From: Geomonas subterranea
GTDB lineage: Bacteria > Desulfobacterota > Desulfuromonadia > Geobacterales > Geobacteraceae
Length of the DNA stretch: 64,000 nt
Assembly (NCBI RefSeq): GCF_019063845.1
Contig: NZ_CP077683.1
Location: 4,590,001-4,654,000, forward strand
Direction of reading: 5' to 3'
Position 1 is the stretch's first letter. Each line of letters starts with the position of its first letter. Both the position numbers and the translations under genes were made by a program. Below are positions 31,786 through 59,855 of the stretch, piece by piece. The notes beneath the pieces were generated by a model. It was not told the DNA's origin, did no database searches, and was given only the letters and a program-made list of their open reading frames with translations.

Positions 31786-33111
31786 ATGCAAACTCGCAGG
31801 CGTTGCAGGCTTTTTATCTGCGCCGGGCTTCTTACTGCCGCACTCTCCGGTTGCGGCGGTTCCTCCTCCAACGAACACATCCCCTCCACGGTCTCCATTT
31901 TCTACGAGCACAGCGTCCTGTTGAAGAACGGCTCCACCTACACCATGGGGTACAACGGTTTCGGCCAGTTGGGGGATGGGACCCTCACCCAGCGGGAGAT
32001 CGCGGTTCCGGTGCCGGGAATGGAGCAGATGCTGCAAGCCACCGCGGGCAATGCGCACACCATGGTTACCAACGGAAGCGACCTGTATTCGTGGGGCTAC
32101 AACCTCTACGGGCAGTTGGGCAACAAGGACGCCTCGACCACCTACCCCGATTCCTATAAAAGCTCCCCGGTCAAGGTGACCTTTGATCCTGCGGTTGCCG
32201 CGGTTACCGATATCGCCGCAGGCGGGTACCACTCCCTCGCCATCGCCGACGGCAAGCTCTATGCCTGGGGTTACAATTTCTACCGCCAGCTCGGCAACAG
32301 CCTGGGCACCAATTCCAAGGTTCCCCTCCAGATCACCACCGGCCACGAAGGCGAGGACCTCACCGCGCTGGCCCCCAAGAAGGTGGCTGCGGGCGGCCTG
32401 TTCTCCATGGCGCTTTTCGGCAACGGCGACGTTTACGTCTGGGGGAACAACAGGAATATCACCAAGTCGGACCGCATCAACGAGCTCGTTTCCTTCAGCA
32501 CCTACTCGTCCGTCTGCTCCAGCCCCAAGAAGGTGATCTTCCCAGGCACGGACAAGATAGAGCAGATAGCCGCCCTCGCCAGCGCCGGGCTCGCGCTCCA
32601 GGTACAGCGGGACGGATCAGGGAAAACCACTAAACAGATTCTGTGGGGGTGGGGACACAACGATCGGGGCGAGTTGGGCCCGAACATCGAAATAGGAAAG
32701 AGCAGCACAACGCCGGTGCAGGTATGGAGTGTCGATGTCGCCGATGACTTGTCCGTCGAGATCAAGAAGATAGTGACCGGGACCAACCACATCCTGCTGC
32801 TCATGGGGTCGCGTGGGAGCCTGCAGAACGACGGCAACTGGTATGTCAACGCCATCGGCCTCAACTCCGCCGGCCAGCTGGGCAACGGCACCACCACCAG
32901 CAGCTCGGAAATGATCCGCACCCTGAACTCCGTCGGCGCTCCGATGGCCGACGTTTCAGACATCGCCGCCTTCGGCAAGACCTCTTTCGCCTTGGTCGCC
33001 GGCGCCTGGTACGGCTGGGGCAACAACACCATGGGGCAGCTCGGCAACACGGTCGACACCAAGACGGGAATCCCCTTCTTCAAGACGCCGGTCACGGTCA
33101 AGTTCAAGTAG
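31786..33111 (+). CDS. RCC1-repeat beta-propeller lipoprotein
   Basis: This 441-residue exported protein has a lipobox-like GLLTAALSGCGGSSS (Cys at about 23), so it is probably lipid-anchored. The rest is made of RCC1/ATS1-type repeats with the recurrent core YxWGxNxxGQLG: TMGYNGFGQLGDGT, YSWGYNLYGQLGN, YAWGYNFYRQLGN, YVWGNNRN, WGWGHNDRGELG, IGLNSAGQLGNGT and YGWGNNTMGQLGN. That makes seven blades, the count for one propeller. The family mediates protein-protein contacts; the partner is unknown. It is single, with its own promoter and a strong terminator. Confidence 0.9.
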   Translation: MQTRRRCRLFICAGLLTAALSGCGGSSSNEHIPSTVSIFYEHSVLLKNGSTYTMGYNGFGQLGDGTLTQREIAVPVPGMEQMLQATAGNAHTMVTNGSDLYSWGYNLYGQLGNKDASTTYPDSYKSSPVKVTFDPAVAAVTDIAAGGYHSLAIADGKLYAWGYNFYRQLGNSLGTNSKVPLQITTGHEGEDLTALAPKKVAAGGLFSMALFGNGDVYVWGNNRNITKSDRINELVSFSTYSSVCSSPKKVIFPGTDKIEQIAALASAGLALQVQRDGSGKTTKQILWGWGHNDRGELGPNIEIGKSSTTPVQVWSVDVADDLSVEIKKIVTGTNHILLLMGSRGSLQNDGNWYVNAIGLNSAGQLGNGTTTSSSEMIRTLNSVGAPMADVSDIAAFGKTSFALVAGAWYGWGNNTMGQLGNTVDTKTGIPFFKTPVTVKFK

Positions 33112-49588: not shown

Positions 49589-50643
49589 ATGCGCGTACTG
49601 ATCATCAAACCATCCTCCCTGGGAGACGTGATCCAGGCCCTGCCGGTGCTCGACTACCTGCACCAGGCGGTGCCCGGCATCGAGGTCGACTGGGTGATCG
49701 AGGAAAGCCTCCAGGGCGTGCTGGCCGGGCATCCGCAGGTGAGCCAGGTGCACTCCGTCCCTGCGGCCCGGTGGCGCAAACAGCGCTTCTCCGCGAAGAC
49801 CTGGCGCGGCGTGTCGGCCCTGCGCAAGACCCTGTGTGAACGGGCCTACGACCTGGTTTTCGACCTGCAGGGCGACCTGATCAGCGGGGTGATCTCACGG
49901 TACTCCGGTTGCGCGGACCGGCTCGGGTTCGAGCGGGACGCCGTCGTGGAGCCGCTGAACACCTGGTGCAACACCCGCCTGATCCCGGTCCGCCGGCAGG
50001 AGTACCACAACACCGACCGCTGCCTGCGCCTGGTGAGCATCCCTTTCGCCAAGGATTTCCGCTCCATGGAGCTTGCCGCCCACCTGGCCAGCTCGCCCGG
50101 TGACGAGGCCAACGCCGAGGCGCTGCTCGCCACGCTGGCGGACGGACTGGTTTTTCTGTTCCACCACGGCACGGCGCAGCCGACCGGGGCCTGGAGCGAA
50201 AAGGGGTGGACCGAGTTGGGGAGAGAGGTGCTGGACCGCTTCCACGACGCCACCATCCTGCTCCCCTGGGAGAGCGAGACCGAGCGCCAGGCGGCCTTCT
50301 CCATCGCCGCCGCCATCGGCCCTGGGTGCCGGGTGCTGGACCGCCTGTCCCTGAAGGGGATGGCCGCTCTTTTGAAGAAGGTGGATCTGGTGGTCGGGGG
50401 GATGCCGGGGGGGTGCAGATGGCAGCGGCCCTCGGCACGCCGACGGTGTCGTTCTACCGCGGCACGCTCGCCAGGAGGAGTGCGCCGCGCGGTGACGCCC
50501 ACGTGGCCCTGCAGTCGCCCATGCACTGCGCGGGCTGCCAGAGGGCGTACTGCGACAAGGACGCCAAGTGCCGCGACAGCATCAAGGTGGAGGCGGTTCT
50601 GGCAGGAATCAACCGTCTCCTGCATCCTCACGAAGGGCGTTGA
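49589..50643 (+). pseudogene. Glycosyltransferase family 9 (heptosyltransferase) with a frameshift
   Basis: The first 270 residues are a clear GT9 LPS heptosyltransferase: MRVLIIKPSSLGDVIQALPV, DWVIEESLQGVLAGHP, YDLVFDLQGDLISG and DRLSLKGMAALLKKVDLVVGG. After a run of six G at 50396-50401, homology jumps to another frame, where GVQMAAALGTPTVSFYRGT and SPMHCAGCQRAYCDKDAKC continue to the stop at 50643. One more G would give an intact protein of about 351 residues ending RLLHPHEGR. Read without correction, the frame runs to 50746 with an unrelated tail. It is a true pseudogene, a phase-variable gene or a sequencing error. It would extend the LPS inner core. Confidence 0.85.
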
Positions 50644-50742
50644 GTCCGGACGCGAGGGAGCGTCTATTGCTGGCCTTTTTGCTGCAGTTCTGCTATTGTT
50701 GGCCGCATTTTGCGTGAGCATCTGTAGGGGAGGAGAGTCTCG

Positions 50743-52365
50743 TTGAACGTCATTAGTAACGAGCAGTACAACATCGGTCATATCTGTACGCGTCAACAGT
50801 GCGACTCGGGTTTCGGCGGCAAGACCGCTTTCCGCTGGATCTCCGCGCACCACGAGCGGACCGATTACAGCTTCGACGACCTCGACCGCGAATCGAACAA
50901 GTTTGCCAATGCCTTAAAAGGGCTGGGGTTCAACCAGGGCGACATACTGTTCACCTTTCTTCCCAAGGCCCCGGAGCAGTTCTTCAGCTTCCTGGGGGGC
51001 TTGAAGCTGCAGGTCATCTGCGGCACGCTCTTCTCGAGTTTCGGTGAGGATGCCATCCTGGACCGCTTGGGCGATGCCGGGGCCAAAGGCGTCGTCACCA
51101 AGAAGAGCCTGATGAAGAAGATCCTCCGGGTGCGCGACCAGCTCCCGAAGTTGCAGTACATCATCGTGACCGACCTTGATGAGCATCAATCGGCTGACAT
51201 CCTGAGTTACTGGCAGCTCGTACGCGAGGCTTCGGGTGATTTCGTCGCGCCGCAGACCGCGGCCGACACCCCCTCGGTGCTGCATTACACCTCCGGCTCG
51301 ACCGGAAAGCCGAAGGGGGTGCTGCATGTCCACGGCAGCATTCTGCATCAAAGCGGCACGGCAGCCCGGGTACTGACACTTACCGGCAGCGACATCTACT
51401 GGTGTACGGCAGATCAGGGGTGGGTGACGGGGACTTCCTACGGCATCATCGGCCCCTGGAGCCTCGGAGTAACGCAGGTACACTACGGCGGCGGCTATGA
51501 CGCCAAGACCTGGTTCGACTTGCTGGAGCAGGAAGGGGTAACCATCTGGTACTCCGCGCCTACCGCCCTGCGCATGCTGCTGCAGGAGGAGGACGACGTC
51601 TTCAGTGGACGCGACCTGTCGCGGCTGCGTCATATCTTCAGCGTCGGCGAACCGCTCAACCCCGAAGTCATCACCTGGGCGGAGCGGGTCCTGGGACGGC
51701 CGGTTTACGACACCTGGTTTCAGACCGAAACCGGCGGCATCATGATCAGCAACCGCCCCGGTGTCGCCGTTCGCCCCGGCTCGATGGGTATCCCCGTGGC
51801 GGGGATCGAGGCCGCCATTATAGCTGACGATGGTACGGTACTGGGGACCGGCGAACAGGGCAACCTGTGCCTGAAGCCGGGATGGCCGTCGATGTTCGTC
51901 ACCTATCTCAACAACGCTACCGCTTACGGCCAAAAGTTCCGCTCCGGATTTTATTTCACCGGTGACACTGCTTTGCGTGATGAGGAGGGGTATTACTGGT
52001 TCAAAGGGCGCAGTGACGATGTCATCAATACTGCCGGGCATCTCATCAGCCCGTTTGAAGTGGAAAGCGCCCTTCTCGAGATAGAAGAGGTCGCAGAATC
52101 CGGAGTCATCGGGGCACCCGACGACCTTCTGTACGAGAAGGTCGTTGCTTTTGTCTGCCTACACTCCCGCTTCGAGTACTCGAAGCAGCTGGAAGTCAAG
52201 ATAAGGCTGCACGTCAGCAACAAGGCGTCATCCATCGCCACGCCGCAAGAAATCATCATCGTAGAGAGCATCCCCAAAAACAAAAGCGGTAAGATAATGC
52301 GCCGCGTCCTGAAGGCCCGCTATCTCGGCGAGGACGAAGGTGATATTTCCACTCTGGAGACATGA
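50743..52365 (+). CDS. Acyl-activating (AMP-binding) enzyme, first gene of dlt-like module
   Basis: This is a 540-residue ANL-superfamily adenylating enzyme. It has the P-loop YTSGSTGKPKGVLHVH, TADQGWVTGTSYGI (resembling acetyl/propionyl-CoA synthetases), FQTETGG, YFTGDTALRDEEGYYWFKGRSDD-type motif, and the catalytic Lys in PKNKSGKIMRR. It most likely activates a short carboxylic acid and loads it on the ACP encoded 2 bases downstream, in analogy to DltA. The substrate is not known, and an acyl-CoA product is also possible. TTG 50743 is used with a strong ggggaggag upstream. It heads an operon with ACP, MBOAT and SGNH genes. Confidence 0.88.
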   Translation: MNVISNEQYNIGHICTRQQCDSGFGGKTAFRWISAHHERTDYSFDDLDRESNKFANALKGLGFNQGDILFTFLPKAPEQFFSFLGGLKLQVICGTLFSSFGEDAILDRLGDAGAKGVVTKKSLMKKILRVRDQLPKLQYIIVTDLDEHQSADILSYWQLVREASGDFVAPQTAADTPSVLHYTSGSTGKPKGVLHVHGSILHQSGTAARVLTLTGSDIYWCTADQGWVTGTSYGIIGPWSLGVTQVHYGGGYDAKTWFDLLEQEGVTIWYSAPTALRMLLQEEDDVFSGRDLSRLRHIFSVGEPLNPEVITWAERVLGRPVYDTWFQTETGGIMISNRPGVAVRPGSMGIPVAGIEAAIIADDGTVLGTGEQGNLCLKPGWPSMFVTYLNNATAYGQKFRSGFYFTGDTALRDEEGYYWFKGRSDDVINTAGHLISPFEVESALLEIEEVAESGVIGAPDDLLYEKVVAFVCLHSRFEYSKQLEVKIRLHVSNKASSIATPQEIIIVESIPKNKSGKIMRRVLKARYLGEDEGDISTLET

Positions 52366-52366
52366 A

Positions 52367-52600
52367 ATGGAATTACAAGAGCAATTGAACGAAGTTTTCT
52401 GCCAGGTTTTTGACGACGAAGACATCCGCATTACCCCGGCGACGACCGCTGATGACATCGACGGCTGGGATTCCCTGTCCCATGTGAACCTCATAGTCGC
52501 AGTCGAAAGCACCTTCGGTATCAGGTTTTCCCAGAAAGAGGTGCTGACCTTCAAGAACGTCGGCGACCTGCTGGCATGCATCGCGAGCAAGGTGCAGTAA
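52367..52600 (+). CDS. Acyl carrier protein
   Basis: This 77-residue four-helix ACP has the phosphopantetheine attachment serine in DGWDSLSHVNLIVAVE (DSL motif). Its acidic composition is typical. It starts two bases after the stop of the adenylating enzyme and ends 7 bases before the MBOAT gene, so it is a dedicated carrier equivalent to DltC rather than the housekeeping AcpP. Confidence 0.92.
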   Translation: MELQEQLNEVFCQVFDDEDIRITPATTADDIDGWDSLSHVNLIVAVESTFGIRFSQKEVLTFKNVGDLLACIASKVQ

Positions 52601-52607
52601 GGGTCCC

Positions 52608-54059
52608 ATGGTATTCAATTCTCTGCACTACCTGATTTTTTTGCCTGTCGTCTATCTGATGTTCTACCTGGCTGGCGACCGGGCACGCTGGGGTGTGTTG
52701 CTGGCCGCAAGTTTCGCGTTTTACTCGGCGCTGAAAGTCCCTTACCTGCTTGTGGTACTGGTGATGGTGGCTTTGAACACCTATTTTTTTGGCATGTGGC
52801 TGGACCGGGCGCAGGGCGCCCGGGCAAAGCGCCTGGTTCTTTACGGCGGCATCCTGACCAACGTCCTTGTGCTGGTCGTGTTGAAGTATCTGCCGTTTCT
52901 TTCGGAAAACCTGAGGCAACTCTCCGCTTTCCTGTCGCTGGATTACCAGGTGCCGGCGGTCAAGGCCTTTGTGGCCATCGGCGTTTCCTACTACGTCTTC
53001 CAGGCGATTTCCTACCTCTTCGACATCTACCTGGAAATCGAGCAGCCTGAGCGGCACTTCGGGTACTTTCTCCTTTACATGGCCTTTTTCCCCAAGCTCA
53101 TGCAGGGGCCCATCGAGCGCGCGGGGGACTTGCTGCCGCAGCTCAAGGAGAAATACACCTTCCATTACGACAACGTGCGCTACGGCTTGTTACTTTTTGC
53201 GTGGGGGCTTTTCAAGAAGGTGGTCATCGCCGACCGGTTCGGCATCTACGCCGACTCGGTGTACAATGACGTCCACGCCTACCACGGGGTGCAACTGTTA
53301 CTCGGCACCTACGCCTACGCCTTCCAGATCTACATGGATTTTTCAGGCTACACGGACATGGCGCTGGGATCTGCCCGGCTCTTCAACATAAGCCTCACGC
53401 AGAACTTCAACAGCCCCTACCTCGCCACGTCGGTCGCCGACTTCTGGCGCAGGTGGCATATCAGTTTCTCGCGCTGGATACTGGACTACATATTCAAGCC
53501 GCTTCAGATGCAGTGGCGCAACTGGAAAAACTGGGGCACGGCCTTAGCCCTGGTCGTTGCTTTCATCGTTTCCGGGATATGGCATGGCGCCAGCTGGGGG
53601 TTTGTCATCTGGGGCGGGCTGCATGGACTGTATATGGCCTGTTCCGTCTTTTACAAGCCGTATCAGAAAAAGCTGTACAAGGCGCTGGGGGTCCAGAAGA
53701 GCCCGTACCTCAAGGTCTGGCAAGCCCTGGTTACCTTTCACCTTGTCTGCTTCGCGTGGATCTTTTTCAGAGCGAACAGCCTGGGGGATGCCTTGTACAT
53801 CTGCAAGGCCGCGTTCACGGGTCCCCTGCCGGCCTTTCGTGCGTTGCTGGTCCCTGCCTTTGACAGGGCAAATGCCTACCTTCTCCTCGCTGCAGTCGTC
53901 GTGTACTGGGTGGGGGTGCGCTATTCCACAGAGGAAAAGGTGGTATCTCTGTGGAACCGGTCTTCGGCTCTCAGGTGGTGTTGCTACAATGCTTTGATAC
54001 TCGGGCTCATCTTCATGCGCGTCCGGGTCGATGCAGGTTTCATTTACTTCAACTTCTAA
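52608..54059 (+). CDS. MBOAT-family O-acyltransferase (DltB/AlgI-like)
   Basis: This 483-residue integral membrane acyltransferase transfers an acyl group across the membrane to an extracytoplasmic glycan. About 11 hydrophobic helices are visible. The signature LPVVYLMFYLAG at the start, YLFDIYLEIEQPERHFGYFL, KLMQGPIERAGDLLPQL, MDFSGYTDMALGSARL, FNSPYLATSVADFWRRWHIS, and the conserved catalytic His region VSGIWHGASWGFVIWGGLHG place it with DltB/AlgI/PatA. The ATG follows aaggg. It lies between the ACP and SGNH genes. Confidence 0.92.
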   Translation: MVFNSLHYLIFLPVVYLMFYLAGDRARWGVLLAASFAFYSALKVPYLLVVLVMVALNTYFFGMWLDRAQGARAKRLVLYGGILTNVLVLVVLKYLPFLSENLRQLSAFLSLDYQVPAVKAFVAIGVSYYVFQAISYLFDIYLEIEQPERHFGYFLLYMAFFPKLMQGPIERAGDLLPQLKEKYTFHYDNVRYGLLLFAWGLFKKVVIADRFGIYADSVYNDVHAYHGVQLLLGTYAYAFQIYMDFSGYTDMALGSARLFNISLTQNFNSPYLATSVADFWRRWHISFSRWILDYIFKPLQMQWRNWKNWGTALALVVAFIVSGIWHGASWGFVIWGGLHGLYMACSVFYKPYQKKLYKALGVQKSPYLKVWQALVTFHLVCFAWIFFRANSLGDALYICKAAFTGPLPAFRALLVPAFDRANAYLLLAAVVVYWVGVRYSTEEKVVSLWNRSSALRWCCYNALILGLIFMRVRVDAGFIYFNF

Positions 54060-54068
54060 AAGAGAAAA

Positions 54069-55253
54069 ATGGACAAGCTTTTTAAAAAGGTTCTGCTGCT
54101 TGCACTGCCGTATGTTCTTTATCTGTCTATCCCCGTCTGGCTGCTGGTAGGTACAAAGGAGCTTGGTGGCAACATCAACCAGATAATAGACAATGCCTCC
54201 AAAGGGAACCCGCAGCTGGTCGGCTTTGGCTTCAACGAGTCATGTTACAGATACATGAAGCTCAAGATACTTGCGGCTTTGCCCCGGCGCGATGTCGTTG
54301 CTTTGGGTTCTTCGCGCGTGCTGCAGTTCCGCGACAAGATGTTTGCTCCAAACCGGTTTTACAATGCCGGTTATACGATAAAAAGCATCCCGGAGTTCAT
54401 GACGTTCGTTTCGCTGCTGCCTGAGGACAAGCTGCCCCGTACCCTGATCATCGGTTTGGATCACTGGATGTTCAACGCACGGTACGATCACCTCAATGCC
54501 GCCCCTAACAAACAGGAGTGGCTAAAGTACGATGACATGGATGTCACCTCCGTGTTCAAAGCTTCCAAGAAGGTTTACAAGAGAACCTTCAGCGGCGTGG
54601 TCTCGCTTGACGACGTCCTGTTTCCGGACAAGGCCATGGCCCGTTCACAGAAAGACGCCGCCCTTGCCTCGGTGCCGAAGTTTGGCTTCAATGCCTGCGT
54701 GAACAAGACCGGTTTCAGAAATGATGGCAGCATGTACTATGGCATCCAGATAGAAAAGCTGATGGCAAATGCCTCTGACGCCAACGACTTCAAGTTCAAG
54801 GACACGCTGCACAAAGTTGCCAAAGGCCAGGACCGGTTCAAGCAGGGGGGGGAAATCAACGAGGAGGCAGTACGCCAGCTGAGGCTTTTCCTCGCATACT
54901 GCCAGAAGAAAAACATCCACGTGGTTGCTTTTCTTCCACCTTTTACCGATACCGTCTGGAACAAGATGGTTGCCTCAGGAAAGTTCCACTACCTGGATGG
55001 GCTGAATGCGCGGCTTCAACACGAGCTGGACGGTTACGGCTATGAATTTTACGATTTCAGCACCTTCAGTTCCGCCGGGGCCACGGACCTCGAAGCGATC
55101 GACGGATTTCATGGCGGGGAGTCGGTGTATCTCGGTATGCTGATCAGGATGCTCGACAGGGGCTCCAAGCTCAATGAATTCTGCAATGTCAACAAGCTGC
55201 GTGAAGACGCAGCGCGGAAGTTCAACAGGTACACGGTTTATCAGAGTTTTTAG
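54069..55253 (+). CDS. SGNH/DltD-like membrane-anchored protein
   Basis: This 394-residue protein has one N-terminal membrane anchor (LLLALPYVLYLSIPVWLLVG) and a predicted periplasmic domain. VVALGSSRVLQFRDKMF supplies a possible nucleophilic Ser (GSSR), and the C-terminal IDGFHGGESVYLGML supplies an Asp-x-x-His pair, as in DltD and AlgJ/AlgX-type proteins partnering MBOATs. I do not recognise a named family. Context indicates the acyl-accepting or final transfer partner of the upstream MBOAT. It starts 10 bases after the MBOAT stop. The base composition (more A/T) differs from the pse genes that follow. Confidence 0.75.
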   Translation: MDKLFKKVLLLALPYVLYLSIPVWLLVGTKELGGNINQIIDNASKGNPQLVGFGFNESCYRYMKLKILAALPRRDVVALGSSRVLQFRDKMFAPNRFYNAGYTIKSIPEFMTFVSLLPEDKLPRTLIIGLDHWMFNARYDHLNAAPNKQEWLKYDDMDVTSVFKASKKVYKRTFSGVVSLDDVLFPDKAMARSQKDAALASVPKFGFNACVNKTGFRNDGSMYYGIQIEKLMANASDANDFKFKDTLHKVAKGQDRFKQGGEINEEAVRQLRLFLAYCQKKNIHVVAFLPPFTDTVWNKMVASGKFHYLDGLNARLQHELDGYGYEFYDFSTFSSAGATDLEAIDGFHGGESVYLGMLIRMLDRGSKLNEFCNVNKLREDAARKFNRYTVYQSF

Positions 55254-55337: not shown

Positions 55338-56348
55338 GTGTTAAAAAATCGCAGCATTCTGGTCACCGGTGGCACCGGGTCGTTTGGCAAGAAATTCGTG
55401 GAAACCATTCTCACGGCATATCCGGAGATCGAGCGGGTGGTGGTCTATTCCCGCGACGAACTGAAGCAGTTCGAGATGTCGCAGCAGTTTTCCCACGACA
55501 AGTACAAGCAGATCCGCTACTTCATCGGCGACGTGCGTGACCGCGAGCGTCTCTCCAAGGCCATGGAAGGGATCGACATCGTCATCCACGCGGCGGCGCT
55601 CAAACAGGTTCCGGCCTGCGAGTACAACCCGTTCGAGGCGATCAAGACCAACATCCACGGCGCGCAGAACGTGGTCGAGGCGGCCATCGAGCGCGGCGTG
55701 AAGCAGGTCGTCGCCCTTTCCACCGACAAGGCCGCCGCCCCCATCAACCTCTACGGCGCCACCAAGCTCTGCTCCGACAAGCTCTTCGTCGCGGCCAACA
55801 ACTTCAAGGGGAAGCACGACATCAAGTTCTCCGTGGTGCGCTACGGCAACGTCATGGGTAGCCGCGGCTCGGTCATCCCCTTCTTCATGAACAAGAGGAG
55901 CTCCGGCGTCCTCCCCATCACCGACGAGCGCATGACCCGCTTCAACATCACCCTCGAGGACGGCGTCAAGCTCGTGCTCTTCGCGCTCGAGAACATGTGG
56001 GGTGGCGAGATCTTCGTCCCCAAGATCCCGAGCTACCGGATCAACGACATCGCCGAGGCGATCGGCCCCAACTGCAAGCGCGAAGTCGTCGGCATCCGCC
56101 CGGGGGAGAAGCTGCACGAAGAGATGATCACCATGACCGACGCCATCTCCACCGTCGAGTTCGAGAAGTACTTCGTCATCCTCCCCTCCATCCCGCTTTG
56201 GGACGTGGACAAGTTCGCCGCCGCCTTCAACGGCAAGCTCTGCCAGGACGGCTTCTGCTACAACTCCGGCACCAACAGCGAGTGGCTGAACGTCGAGGAG
56301 CTGCGCGAGCTGATCAAGGAACACGTCGATCCGAACTTCACCTACTAG
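55338..56348 (+). CDS. pseB: UDP-N-acetylglucosamine 4,6-dehydratase (inverting)
   Basis: This enzyme performs the first step of pseudaminic acid synthesis. The 336-residue extended SDR has the NAD(P) site VTGGTGSFGKKFVE, VVYSRDELKQFEMSQQF, VIHAAALKQVPACEYNPFEA (PseB/FlaA1 signature), LSTDKAAAPINLYGATKLCSDKLF (with the catalytic Lys replacing the usual Tyr-x-x-x-Lys Tyr), and RPGEKLHEEMI. The start is GTG 55338 after gggggacgaac. It sits at the head of the pse genes, 84 bases after the SGNH gene, and may have its own promoter (a TACAAT at about 55304). Confidence 0.94.
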   Translation: MLKNRSILVTGGTGSFGKKFVETILTAYPEIERVVVYSRDELKQFEMSQQFSHDKYKQIRYFIGDVRDRERLSKAMEGIDIVIHAAALKQVPACEYNPFEAIKTNIHGAQNVVEAAIERGVKQVVALSTDKAAAPINLYGATKLCSDKLFVAANNFKGKHDIKFSVVRYGNVMGSRGSVIPFFMNKRSSGVLPITDERMTRFNITLEDGVKLVLFALENMWGGEIFVPKIPSYRINDIAEAIGPNCKREVVGIRPGEKLHEEMITMTDAISTVEFEKYFVILPSIPLWDVDKFAAAFNGKLCQDGFCYNSGTNSEWLNVEELRELIKEHVDPNFTY

Positions 56349-56358
56349 GAGGCAGGGC

Positions 56359-57528
56359 GTGAAACAGGCACCGATTCCCTACGGCCGGCAGTCCATCTCC
56401 GAGGCCGACATCCAGGCGGTTGTCGACGTTCTTCGTTCCGACTGGCTGACGCAAGGGCCGTCCATCGAGCGCTTCGAGCAGGCCGTCGCTGAGTACTGCG
56501 GCGCGAAGTACGCCGTCGCGGTGAACAGCGCCACCTCGGCGCTGCACATCGCCTGCCTCGCCGCGGAGCTGGGGGAGGGGGACACCCTCTGGACCTCCCC
56601 CAACACCTTCGTCGCCTCGGCCAACTGCGGCCTGTACTGCGGCGCCGGTGTCGACTTCGTGGACATCGACCCGCGCACCTACAACCTGTCGGCGGCCGAG
56701 CTGGAAAAGAAGCTGGTCCAGGCCAAGGCGGAGGGGAAACTCCCCAAGGTGGTGATCCCGGTGCACTTCTCCGGGCAGCCCTGCGAGATGGAAAAGATCG
56801 CCGCGCTCTCCCGCGAGTACGGCTTCTCCGTCATCGAGGACGCCTCCCACGCCATCGGCGGCAGGTATAAGGGGGAGGCGATCGGCGGCTGCCGCTTCTC
56901 CGACATGACCGTGTTCAGCTTCCACCCGGTGAAGATCATCACCACGGCGGAAGGGGGGATGGTGCTCACCAACCGCAAGGAGCTCTACGACCGCCTGATC
57001 CGCCTGAGAAGTCACGGCATCACCCGCGACCCCGCCTTCATGCAGTGGGAGAGCGACGGCCCGTGGTACTACCAGCAGATCGAGCTCGGCTTCAACTACC
57101 GCATCACCGACCTCCAGGCCGCCCTGGGGCTCTCCCAGATGACCCGCCTGGACGAGTTCGTGGCCGCGAGGCACCGCCTGGCCGCGCGCTACGACGACCT
57201 GCTGGCGGAGCTCCCGGTGGTCACCCCGTACCAGCACCCGGACAGCTATTCCGGTCTGCACCTCTACGTGATCCGGCTCAAGCTGGACCAGATCTCGAAG
57301 AGCCACCGCGAGGTATTCGAGGCGCTCCGTGCGCAGGGGATCCTGGTCAACCTGCACTACATCCCGGTGCACACCCAGCCCTACTACCGGCGCCTGGGCT
57401 TCAAGCCGGGCGACTTCCCCGAATCGGAGCGCTACTACGCCGAGGCCATCAGCCTCCCGATGTTCTCCAGCCTCTCCGACGAGCAGCAGGACCGCGTGGC
57501 CGCGGCGCTCAAAGAGGCGCTGTCGTGA
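56359..57528 (+). CDS. pseC: UDP-4-amino-4,6-dideoxy-N-acetyl-L-altrosamine transaminase
   Basis: This PLP-dependent DegT/DnrJ/EryC1 aminotransferase performs the second step of the pseudaminate pathway. The 389-residue protein has IPYGRQSISEADIQAVVDVL at the start, the PLP Asp in VIEDASHAIGGRYKG, the Schiff-base Lys in FHPVKIITTAEGGMV, and HGITRDP. Its length and the FN/YRITDLQAALG segment are typical. The start is GTG 56359 with aggaggcagg upstream. It overlaps pseF by 4 bases. Confidence 0.94.
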   Translation: MKQAPIPYGRQSISEADIQAVVDVLRSDWLTQGPSIERFEQAVAEYCGAKYAVAVNSATSALHIACLAAELGEGDTLWTSPNTFVASANCGLYCGAGVDFVDIDPRTYNLSAAELEKKLVQAKAEGKLPKVVIPVHFSGQPCEMEKIAALSREYGFSVIEDASHAIGGRYKGEAIGGCRFSDMTVFSFHPVKIITTAEGGMVLTNRKELYDRLIRLRSHGITRDPAFMQWESDGPWYYQQIELGFNYRITDLQAALGLSQMTRLDEFVAARHRLAARYDDLLAELPVVTPYQHPDSYSGLHLYVIRLKLDQISKSHREVFEALRAQGILVNLHYIPVHTQPYYRRLGFKPGDFPESERYYAEAISLPMFSSLSDEQQDRVAAALKEALS

Positions 57529-58220
57529 ACGTAGCCATCATCCCGGCCCGCGGCGGCAGCAAGCGCATCCCCCGCAAGAACATCAAGGAGTTCTGCGGCA
57601 AGCCGATGATCGCCTGGTCGATCGAGGCGGCGCTTGAAAGCGGCTGCTTCAGCCGGGTGCTGGTTTCCACCGACGACGCGGGAATCGCCGAGGTGGCCCG
57701 CTCCTTCGGGGCGGAGGTCCCCTTCCTGCGTCCCGCGGAGCTTTCCGACGACCACACCGGCACCATCCCCGTGATCCGCCACGCCGTCGAGTTTGTGGCG
57801 GGGGAGGGAGAGCGCCCGGAGTATGCCTGCTGCATCTACGCCACCGCTCCGTTCGTGACGCCCGCCGACCTGAAGCGCGGCCTCGACCTGATCAGGGAGG
57901 CCGGCTGTTCCTACGCCTTCTCGGTGACCAGTTACCCGTTCCCGATCCAGCGCGCCATCAGGATCGACGGCAACGGCCGCGTCGGGATGTTCGATCCCGC
58001 CCAGTTCTCCACCCGCTCGCAGGACCTCGAGGAGGCGTTCCACGACGCCGGGCAGTTCTACTGGGGGCGCTCCGAGGCCTGGATCGCCGAAGAGAGGATC
58101 TTTTCCGATAAGGCGGTCCCCGTCCTTTTGCCGCGCCACCAGGTGCAGGACATCGACACCCTGGAGGACTGGCACCGGGCGGAACTGATGTTCAAGGCCT
58201 GGCGCGAACAGGCGGCATGA
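57525..58220 (+). CDS. pseF: Pseudaminic acid cytidylyltransferase
   Basis: This enzyme activates pseudaminic acid as the CMP-sugar. The 231-residue protein has the CMP-NeuAc synthetase-type motif IPARGGSKRIPRKNIKEFCGKPMI, VSTDDAGIAEVA, a middle CIYATAPFVTPADL, and the C-terminal VQDIDTLEDWHRAEL with the metal-binding Asp pair. The start is GTG 57525 overlapping the pseC stop (GTGA). Longer upstream reading in this frame is a pseC shadow. Confidence 0.92.
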   Translation: MNVAIIPARGGSKRIPRKNIKEFCGKPMIAWSIEAALESGCFSRVLVSTDDAGIAEVARSFGAEVPFLRPAELSDDHTGTIPVIRHAVEFVAGEGERPEYACCIYATAPFVTPADLKRGLDLIREAGCSYAFSVTSYPFPIQRAIRIDGNGRVGMFDPAQFSTRSQDLEEAFHDAGQFYWGRSEAWIAEERIFSDKAVPVLLPRHQVQDIDTLEDWHRAELMFKAWREQAA

Positions 58221-58239
58221 CAAACAGCACGAGGTAACG

Positions 58240-58797
58240 ATGCGCCCTGAAGAATTCAACCTGCGTCCCATCGAAGAGCGTGACCTCGACCTGGTCCTCT
58301 CCTGGCGCAATTCCGAGCGCGTGCGCTCCTACATGTACACCGACCACCTGATCGCCCCCGAGGAGCACCGGGCCTGGTTCGCCCGGACGCGCGACGCGGA
58401 ATTCCCCGCGACCCTCATCTTCGAGTACCAGGGGCGGCCGGTCGGGCTGAAGAGCTTCAACCAGATCGATCGTCACTCCAACCGCTGCCACTGGGGGTTC
58501 TACCTGGGCGACGTGGAGCTGCCGCGCGGCTGCGGCACGGTGATGGGATTTCTCGCGCAGGAGTACATCTTCGAGAAGCAGGGGTTCAGAAAGCTCTGCG
58601 CCGAGGCCTTCGCCTTCAACGAGGGGAGCATCAAGTACCACACCCGCCTGGGATTCGTGCAGGAGGGGCGCCTGGTGCAGCACGTCTTGAAGAACGGGCG
58701 CTACGAGGACGTGATCGTCTTCGGCGCTTTCAAAGAGAACTGGCTGGCCAACAAGGAAGCGTTGGCGGCAAAGATATTCCGGGAGGACGCAGCGTAA
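58240..58797 (+). CDS. pseH: UDP-4-amino-4,6-dideoxy-sugar N-acetyltransferase, PseH-type GNAT
   Basis: This is a 185-residue GNAT-fold protein: LRPIEERDLDLVLSWRNSERVR at the start, WGFYLGDVELPRGCGTVMG for acetyl-CoA binding, then AEAFAFNEGSIKYHTRLGF (the N-x-x-S-x-x-x-(Y/H)-x-x-x-GF motif). Context between pseF and pseI gives the PseH role, acetylation of the 4-amino sugar. gagg lies five bases before the ATG. It overlaps pseI by one base (TAATG). Confidence 0.88.
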   Translation: MRPEEFNLRPIEERDLDLVLSWRNSERVRSYMYTDHLIAPEEHRAWFARTRDAEFPATLIFEYQGRPVGLKSFNQIDRHSNRCHWGFYLGDVELPRGCGTVMGFLAQEYIFEKQGFRKLCAEAFAFNEGSIKYHTRLGFVQEGRLVQHVLKNGRYEDVIVFGAFKENWLANKEALAAKIFREDAA

Positions 58798-59855
58798 TGA
58801 GCTCTATCCAGATCGGCGGGAGGGCCATCGGCCCGGACCACGCGCCGTTCATCATCGCCGAGATGTCGGGCAACCACAACCAGTCCCTGGAGCGGGCCCT
58901 GGAGATCGTCGAGGCCGCGGCCGCTTCCGGCGCGCACGCCCTGAAGCTGCAGACCTACACCGCCGACACCATGACGCTCGACCTGAAGGAGGGGGAGTTC
59001 TTCATCGAGGACCCCAAGAGCCTCTGGAAGGGGCGCTCCCTGTACGACCTGTACCAGGAGGCGCACACCCCCTGGGAGTGGCACAAGCCGATCTTCGACC
59101 GCTGCCGCGAACTGGGCCTCATCTGCTTCAGCACTCCCTTCGACGCCACCAGCGTCGAGTTCCTGGAGGAGCTGGACGTGCCCTGCTACAAGATTGCCTC
59201 CTTCGAGAACACGGACCTGCCGCTGATCCGCAAGGTGGCGGCGACGGGAAAGCCGGTCATCATCTCCACCGGCATGGCGAGCCTCGCGGAACTGGACGAG
59301 ACCGTGCGCGCGGCGCGCGAGGCGGGGTGTCGCGACTTGGTGCTCCTGAAGTGCACCAGCACCTACCCGAGCACCCCCGAGAACACCAACGCGCGCACCA
59401 TCCCGCACCTGAAGGAGCTCTTTGGCTGCCAGATCGGGCTCTCCGACCATTCCATGGGGGTGGGGGTCTCGGTGGCGGCGGTGGCCCTCGGGGCCACGGT
59501 GATCGAGAAGCACTTCACCCTGTGCCGTGCCGACGGCGGGGTCGATTCCACCTTCTCTCTGGAGCCGGAAGAGTTGAAGAGCCTGGTGCTGGAGACCGAG
59601 CGCGCCTGGCAGTCGCTGGGAGGTATCAGCTACGGCCCGACCGAGAAGGAGAAGAAGTCTCTGGTGTTCCGGCGCTCGCTCTACGTGGTCGAGGACGTCA
59701 AGGCCGGCGAGCCGTTCACCGGCAAAAACGTCCGCGCCATCAGGCCCGGCAACGGCCTCCCCACCAAGTACCTGGAGACCTTCCTGGGCAAGCGGGCGGC
59801 GGTCGACATCCGCAGGGGGACGCCGCTCTCCTTCGATCTCTTGGGCGGGCTCTAG
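58797..59855 (+). CDS. pseI: Pseudaminic acid synthase
   Basis: This enzyme condenses 2,4-diacetamido-2,4,6-trideoxy-L-altrose with phosphoenolpyruvate. The 352-residue NeuB-family protein has the TIM-barrel segments IIAEMSGNHNQSLERALEIV, ALKLQTYTADTMTLD, FSTPFDATSVEFLEEL, IISTGMASLAELDE, LKCTSTYPSTPENTN and GLSDHSMGVGVSVAAVALG. A C-terminal SAF/antifreeze-like domain (FRRSLYVVEDVKAGE...VRAIRPGNGL) follows. The NTNARTIPHL and metal-binding His residues are as in PseI rather than NeuB. PseG, which supplies its substrate, is not in the window. Confidence 0.93.
   Translation: MSSIQIGGRAIGPDHAPFIIAEMSGNHNQSLERALEIVEAAAASGAHALKLQTYTADTMTLDLKEGEFFIEDPKSLWKGRSLYDLYQEAHTPWEWHKPIFDRCRELGLICFSTPFDATSVEFLEELDVPCYKIASFENTDLPLIRKVAATGKPVIISTGMASLAELDETVRAAREAGCRDLVLLKCTSTYPSTPENTNARTIPHLKELFGCQIGLSDHSMGVGVSVAAVALGATVIEKHFTLCRADGGVDSTFSLEPEELKSLVLETERAWQSLGGISYGPTEKEKKSLVFRRSLYVVEDVKAGEPFTGKNVRAIRPGNGLPTKYLETFLGKRAAVDIRRGTPLSFDLLGGL

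Follow-up and report, generated by a model that had tools for sequence, protein, structure and literature searches.

A probable carrier-fed MBOAT-SGNH acylation module in the lipopolysaccharide locus of Geomonas subterranea

A 64,000-nucleotide stretch of the chromosome of the soil-type bacterium Geomonas subterranea (the window, G000:C1:4590001-4654000, from a genome of 4.99 Mb in one contig) carries a run of four genes for a ligase, a stand-alone acyl carrier protein (ACP), an MBOAT protein and an SGNH acyltransferase-like protein. In our view, these genes probably form a carrier-fed acylation module in which an acyl group passes from the ligase via ACP, MBOAT and SGNH protein to a periplasmic glycan. 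The ligase would activate a short carboxylic acid with ATP and load it onto the phosphopantetheine arm of the ACP, as homology and the near-perfect co-distribution of the genes suggest. At the cytoplasmic face, the ACP would then hand its acyl group to the MBOAT, which would place it on Tyr480 of its own FIYFNF peptide, a step to which the motif, the fold and a conserved histidine point, before the anchored SGNH protein, given its fold and motifs, would accept it on a serine and esterify the glycan. Ligase and ACP may also act as a genome-wide supply that is able to feed MBOAT-SGNH pairs encoded elsewhere.

The four proteins and their motifs

All four genes that an earlier sequence-only reading of this DNA had named are present on the + strand, with families assigned by Pfam and, for the SGNH protein, by the fold of a structure model. 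The ligase (540 aa) occupies positions 50743..52365 of the window and begins at a TTG start preceded by GGGGAGGAG; it is followed by the ACP (77 aa, 52367..52600; Pfam PP-binding, E 5.7e-07), the MBOAT (483 aa, 52608..54059; Pfam MBOAT, E 5.6e-22) and the SGNH acyltransferase-like protein (394 aa, 54069..55253). The tight run described by that reading holds, as do its gaps of 7 and 9 bases around the MBOAT gene, with two corrections: Ligase and ACP are separated by 1 base instead of 2, and pseB (starting at 55338) lies 84 instead of 85 bases behind the SGNH gene.

The best mechanistic evidence is a C-terminal acyl-shuttle motif that was absent from the earlier reading. The MBOAT has a well-supported DltB-like fold with extra C-terminal helices, and these additional helices carry, fused to the enzyme, the hexapeptide F-I-Y-F-N-F (translated from 54039..54056 on the + strand; Tyr480 codon at 54045-54047), which matches the FXYXXF acyl-shuttle motif defined in PMC12148441. 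Tyr480, the presumed acyl acceptor, is invariant in 26 aligned sequences together with His284 and His326. Against the DltB model TIGR04091, the protein scores 165 bits, under the cut-off of 375. The fourth protein has a hydrophobic N terminus, by which it is predicted to be membrane-anchored (model confidence is low there), as well as GSSR and DGFH motifs. Its model shows an SGNH fold with moderate support, and sialate O-acetylesterases and DltD are among the top matches, tied with other SGNH enzymes; by sequence, this protein matched nothing in Pfam or NCBIfam at E 0.001 and nothing in the PDB.

The ACP displays the motif GWDSLSHVN with Ser36 as presumed phosphopantetheine site, and W-D-S-L-x-H-x-N is invariant in 26 aligned ACPs including that of the window (7 of 33 left out as near copies or, for L024 and L027, as outliers). 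Its best PDB match is 2lml (E 9.9e-18), which we take to be GmACP3 of Geobacter metallireducens; WDSLxH/N is presumably the defining motif of this type of ACP, and the window ACP fits it with WDSLSHVN. A role of GmACP3 in acyl transfer to lipid A has reportedly been proposed. The closest match to the 2lml piece in 48 family genomes reached 72%. Of the four ACPs nearest to 2lml, the three whose surroundings were examined (G007, G029 and G020) sit in ligase-ACP-MBOAT runs, which suggests that GmACP3-type ACPs serve to acylate glycans and not lipid A. Four further loci with close ACPs (76-79% identity; L050:8183-8419, L051:8991-9227, L052 and L053) have the ligase elsewhere in their genomes and match neither ligase nor MBOAT within the stretches themselves, and a radical SAM/B12-binding protein is encoded upstream of the L051 ACP.

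The ligase supports two earlier proposals, namely an adenylating enzyme of acetyl/propionyl-CoA-synthetase type and an acyl group other than D-alanine. It matches Pfam AMP-binding (E 1.2e-71), and in NCBIfam it scores best against acetate-CoA ligase models (675 bits for PRK04319, below the cut-off of 729, and 448 bits), with no DltA model among the best 25 of 104 matches. In a tree of 65 ligases, the module-type enzymes form one clade of 38 rows on a long stem (100/100 support) that groups with Acs-like enzymes. An ACP adjoins 35 of these 38 (exceptions are L016, L027 and one copy in L041), with 15 bases as the commonest spacing between the profile matches.

Phe326 of the window ligase takes the position of Acs Trp414, the residue that limits that enzyme to acetate and that sets the acyl range according to PMC10455477 and PMC8383264. 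This Phe is found in 26/26 same-class and 24/27 wider rows (overlapping sets in which L065, L077, L084, L104 and L112 repeat loci, as the two MBOAT shuttle-motif sets overlap too), and Trp in 27/27 references. The equivalents of Acs Val310, Thr311 and Val386 are retained, with Ile at 310 in some rows. Arg584, a contact of the CoA 3'-phosphate, is replaced by Ser, Ala or Thr in 53/53 module ligase rows, and the Arg191 position, read by eye, is mostly Lys. Because of the pocket Phe and the changed CoA-contact positions, the substrate is probably a C2-C4 acid and not strictly acetate, and we infer that module ligases may hold CoA more weakly. One of 25 ligases was left out of the alignment (a copy with an in-frame stop), 11 of 46 Acs-like loci were left out of the pocket references by an open reading frame (ORF) filter on length and the SGSTG/SGTTG motif, and 6 further rows (module ligase duplicates and one fragment) were left out of the tree and the pocket tally.

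Linkage of ligase, carrier and MBOAT across genomes

In 4 of the 18 other genus genomes searched, the acp-mboat-sgnh run likewise stands between waaC and pseB (L008-L011; SGNH gene at 54-59% identity), so that the arrangement is not due to chance. The ligase itself belongs to this run only in the window and in L010 (89% identity). The other three relatives encode it elsewhere in the genome (73% identity), either with a second ACP and MBOAT (L013 and L015) or alone beside glycosyltransferase-like genes recognized by eye (L016), and in all three, ACP and MBOAT stay together though the LPS (lipopolysaccharide) locus is without a ligase. The exact run seen by the sequence-only reading is thus not fixed, with the ligase in cis in one of four relatives, though its genes do travel together genome-wide. 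That reading had named homologues occurring apart as a finding that would speak against a joint system, and the outcome is divided: The ligase is apart in three of four relatives, yet co-distributed with its partners.

This co-distribution was assessed in 58 genomes from Geomonas subterranea itself, the genus, the family and the order (ligase E <= 1e-120, ACP E <= 1e-10, Pfam MBOAT E <= 1e-5). Each of the three genes was detected in 25 genomes, and the pairs of ligase and ACP, ligase and MBOAT, and ACP and MBOAT coincided in 24, 24 and 23 genomes, respectively (Fisher p 4.7e-14, 4.7e-14 and 9.1e-12, which overstate the association as the genomes share ancestry). Within the genus, 11/19 genomes have all three genes and 8/19 have none. 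Nearly all MBOAT matches (46/47) fall into ligase-bearing genomes, many of them not adjoining the ligase. Two genomes are exceptions regarding the carrier, with an ACP-like match only below threshold beside ligase and MBOAT (G022) or with a weak ACP match only (G039). Since the genes are nearly co-distributed even when encoded apart, this combination of loose physical and tight genomic linkage suggests a shared acyl-ACP pool.

In the Geomonas subterranea genome, the window ligase is the only whole copy, while two MBOATs and two ACPs are kept; a second close ligase gene was not found at E 1e-10, the next best match having 27% identity if a C-terminal fragment is set aside. A plain ligase of acetate metabolism was rejected on this ground and on the distribution of the ligase with the ACP across the 58 genomes. 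The second MBOAT of this genome (L012) is without ligase and ACP, both of which the relatives have at this place, and has a large neighbour (L012:6530-9271, ALGX-type by likeness to that of L013).

Several side observations concern these loci. A stretch of 42 residues resembling the ligase N terminus lies before this lone MBOAT (L012:11108-11230), and a C-terminal-like remnant of 102 residues precedes the second ACP of the same genome (L055:7885-8190). Genome G051 has a second ligase copy with an in-frame TAG (L041:6920-8371) around 5 kb from another copy. The second MBOAT type is followed by an ALGX-domain protein of ~900 residues (L013:12938-15628), and very long neighbours of ~1,120 residues also occur.

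Beyond the order, a scan of species genomes with an ACP profile matched at least 595 stretches, of which at least 543 were confirmed and the best 80 of 543 analysed; the profile is rich in ligase-linked ACPs, so that these 80 loci give no estimate of natural frequency. When a loader gene had to lie on the same strand and end no more than 800 bases before the ACP, 27 of the best 80 followed an Acs-like ligase, 41 an FkbH-like gene and 12 neither, and an MBOAT was encoded on the same strand within ~5 kb in 51, elsewhere in the stretch in 9 and not at all in 20. FkbH of the HAD-IIIC family loads glyceryl from 1,3-bisphosphoglycerate onto ACPs. TIGR01686 and PF21211 confirmed the assignment for two loci (L113 and L133), and a profile built from these two provided it for the other 39; such loci occur in Bacillota, Bacteroidota and others, and 26/41 have a nearby MBOAT. 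At L113 (1186-7005), a MaoC-type dehydratase and an SDR reductase are encoded between ACP and MBOAT, so that the acyl group there may undergo changes while bound to the ACP. Through FkbH, this ACP family may have a second way of being loaded, perhaps leading to glyceryl or modified acyl esters.

The same carrier family stands beside the same kind of MBOAT in unrelated bacteria of several phyla. As a tentative generalization that we hold to be somewhat less probable than its opposite, many bacteria would use one WDSLSH-type ACP to supply several unlinked MBOAT-SGNH pairs per cell; either an Acs-like ligase would charge this ACP with short acids or FkbH would charge it with glyceryl or lactyl, the loader setting the acyl group and the SGNH protein the site. 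Almost all MBOATs of Geomonas and its order would then receive their acyl groups from the carrier and not from CoA.

Several observations weigh against a carrier-fed module. Genome G031 has an MBOAT without ligase or ACP match and G041 ligase and ACP without an MBOAT, and the best 80 ACP loci include the 20 whose stretch, on a short contig in some cases, contains no MBOAT. ACP-adjacent and ACP-free rows interleave in the MBOAT tree, with 16 label changes vs 21.4 in shuffles, so that linkage in cis is loose (63 rows, of which 31 ACP-adjacent, 24 not and 8 of FkbH type; the tree covers 16 of 80 wide loci and matches of 1,000 bases or more). Three of the wider ligases, from Sumerlaeota and Chloroflexota, retain the pocket Trp. 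Loss of the CoA-contact arginines is not unique to the module either, as Arg584 is absent in 9/27 references and position 191 varies among short references too (read by eye). Finally, with a mean pLDDT of 63 the SGNH model is weak, and Foldseek by itself found nothing matching it under E 0.001.

Target glycan and alternative explanations

The surface glycan setting proposed by the sequence-only reading is supported by the position of the module in an LPS locus between waaC and pseB. The genes upstream on the + strand include lpxB, an msbA-like gene, an LpxL-like acyltransferase, a waaA-like Kdo transferase, lpxK and a waaC-like heptosyltransferase I gene (49589..50643; Pfam Glyco_transf_9, NCBIfam 173 bits vs a cut-off of 185.3). 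Downstream of the module follow pseB, pseC, pseF, pseH and pseI for pseudaminate synthesis (55338..59855, + strand; NCBIfam PseB/PseC/PseF/PseH/PseI, all above cut-offs), a Capsule_synth-domain gene and a sugar epimerase-like gene. The waaC-like gene (window 49589-50746) seems to change frame after around residue 274, through either an assembly error or a real break, and is a single open frame in four relatives (351-379 aa). Scans for promoters and terminators gave no signal above shuffles, and an RCC1-like repeat protein is encoded at window positions 31786-33111 (Pfam RCC1, E 1e-46).

Since the module genes sit in an LPS locus, an LPS-linked sugar is the most likely target, with another periplasmic glycan as the alternative. 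Other modules of this type lie among other glycan genes, and the commonest Pfam families among 132 ORFs around 24 ligase loci were the glycosyltransferase families GT2 (12), GT1 (11) and GT9 (5) and also ALGX (10), with Wzy_C at 3, in a tally without a control set for which ORFs were chosen by simple rules and 2 of 134 neighbour proteins were left out. An action specifically on pseudaminic acid, for instance as O-acyl-Pse in the Geomonas surface glycan, would be in keeping with the 84 bases between the SGNH gene and pseB, with a gene order that 4 other Geomonas loci share with the window, and with sialate O-acetylesterases among the top matches of the SGNH model, though other SGNH enzymes tie. 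We nevertheless find it unlikely, and the pseudaminate link drawn by the sequence-only reading comes down to position: Two genus genomes (L194 and L195) have the pse run directly behind waaC without the module, and G003, the source of L194, has all five pse genes and no ligase, ACP or MBOAT match anywhere. The full pse set was found in 5/130 stretches checked, all of them Geomonas LPS loci, and is missing from the other 125 at the thresholds used (L021 has a weak PseF-like match); L200, a further stretch outside these 130, has a PseI-like gene ~6 kb from its ligase. Moreover, the ligase-ACP-MBOAT run of G008 lies megabases from its pseC.

It is also quite improbable, in our judgement, that the ligase is an acyl-CoA synthetase, that the MBOAT uses acyl-CoA like PatA and that the ACP serves another path such as lipid A. 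The ligase is indeed closest to acetate-CoA ligases, the module lies beside lpxK and waaC, and the tested pair PatAB uses acetyl-CoA according to PMC12148441. If the MBOAT simply used acetyl-CoA, a ligase would be superfluous, yet the distributions of ligase, ACP and MBOAT nearly coincide; the ligase and ACP genes are usually adjacent; ACP and MBOAT stay together in the three Geomonas relatives whose LPS locus is without a ligase; and no module gene belongs to a lipid A acyltransferase family. D-alanylation of a glycan by a true Dlt system would explain the same set of activities, the DltB fold and TIGR04091 score of the MBOAT and the presence of DltD among the tied SGNH folds. We give it hardly any credence, since the ligase groups with acetate-CoA ligases and retains the Acs pocket Val, Thr and Val, the DltB score falls below its cut-off, and the shuttle is part of the MBOAT instead of a separate protein like DltX, for which gaps of 1-9 bases leave no room in the run. 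Dlt proper was accordingly rejected on ligase family and fused shuttle.

Comparison with known systems

The Dlt-like logic put forward by the sequence-only reading is supported by the make-up of the module. Like the Dlt system (DltA-DltC-DltB-DltX-DltD, teichoic acid D-alanylation), the module combines an adenylating enzyme, a dedicated carrier encoded one base after it, a DltB-type MBOAT with conserved histidine and an SGNH partner. It differs from Dlt by an Acs-type ligase in place of DltA, a WDSLSH-type ACP, a shuttle peptide fused to the MBOAT and its location in an LPS locus, in a bacterium that has lipid A genes; no separate DltX is encoded inside the run (only the run, not other parts of the genome, was considered). 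With PatA/PatB and AlgI/AlgJ-X O-acetylation, it shares the C-terminal FXYXXF on additional helices of the MBOAT and the SGNH partner. PMC12148441 divides these pathways into Dlt (carrier and DltX) and all others (acyl-CoA and a fused shuttle), describes the non-Dlt MBOAT/SGNH pathways as lacking a carrier protein and has PatA using acetyl-CoA, whereas ligase and ACP accompany the MBOAT-SGNH pair of the module. The front half of the module is Dlt-like and its back half PatA/PatB-like. No ligase-ACP-MBOAT-SGNH module was described among the listed titles and abstract starts of the open-licence literature searched, in line with the statement of the sequence-only reading that it knew of no named system with this set.

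Two further systems share parts of this design. AlmEFG of Vibrio cholerae, which puts glycine on lipid A, likewise uses a ligase and a carrier protein for the modification of LPS; its final transferase is LpxL-like, not MBOAT-SGNH. FkbH-ACP loading resembles the module in that an FkbH-like gene precedes a related ACP in 41 of the best 80 ACP loci, and it differs in chemistry and acyl group, the window having a ligase instead. The module joins a carrier protein with a fused shuttle, using a carrier family that spans several phyla and has two alternative loaders. If our reading is true, ester-linked acyl groups other than acetate are predicted on LPS and other glycans of Gram-negative bacteria, and the kind of ACP found here, structurally known but so far unassigned, would gain a role.

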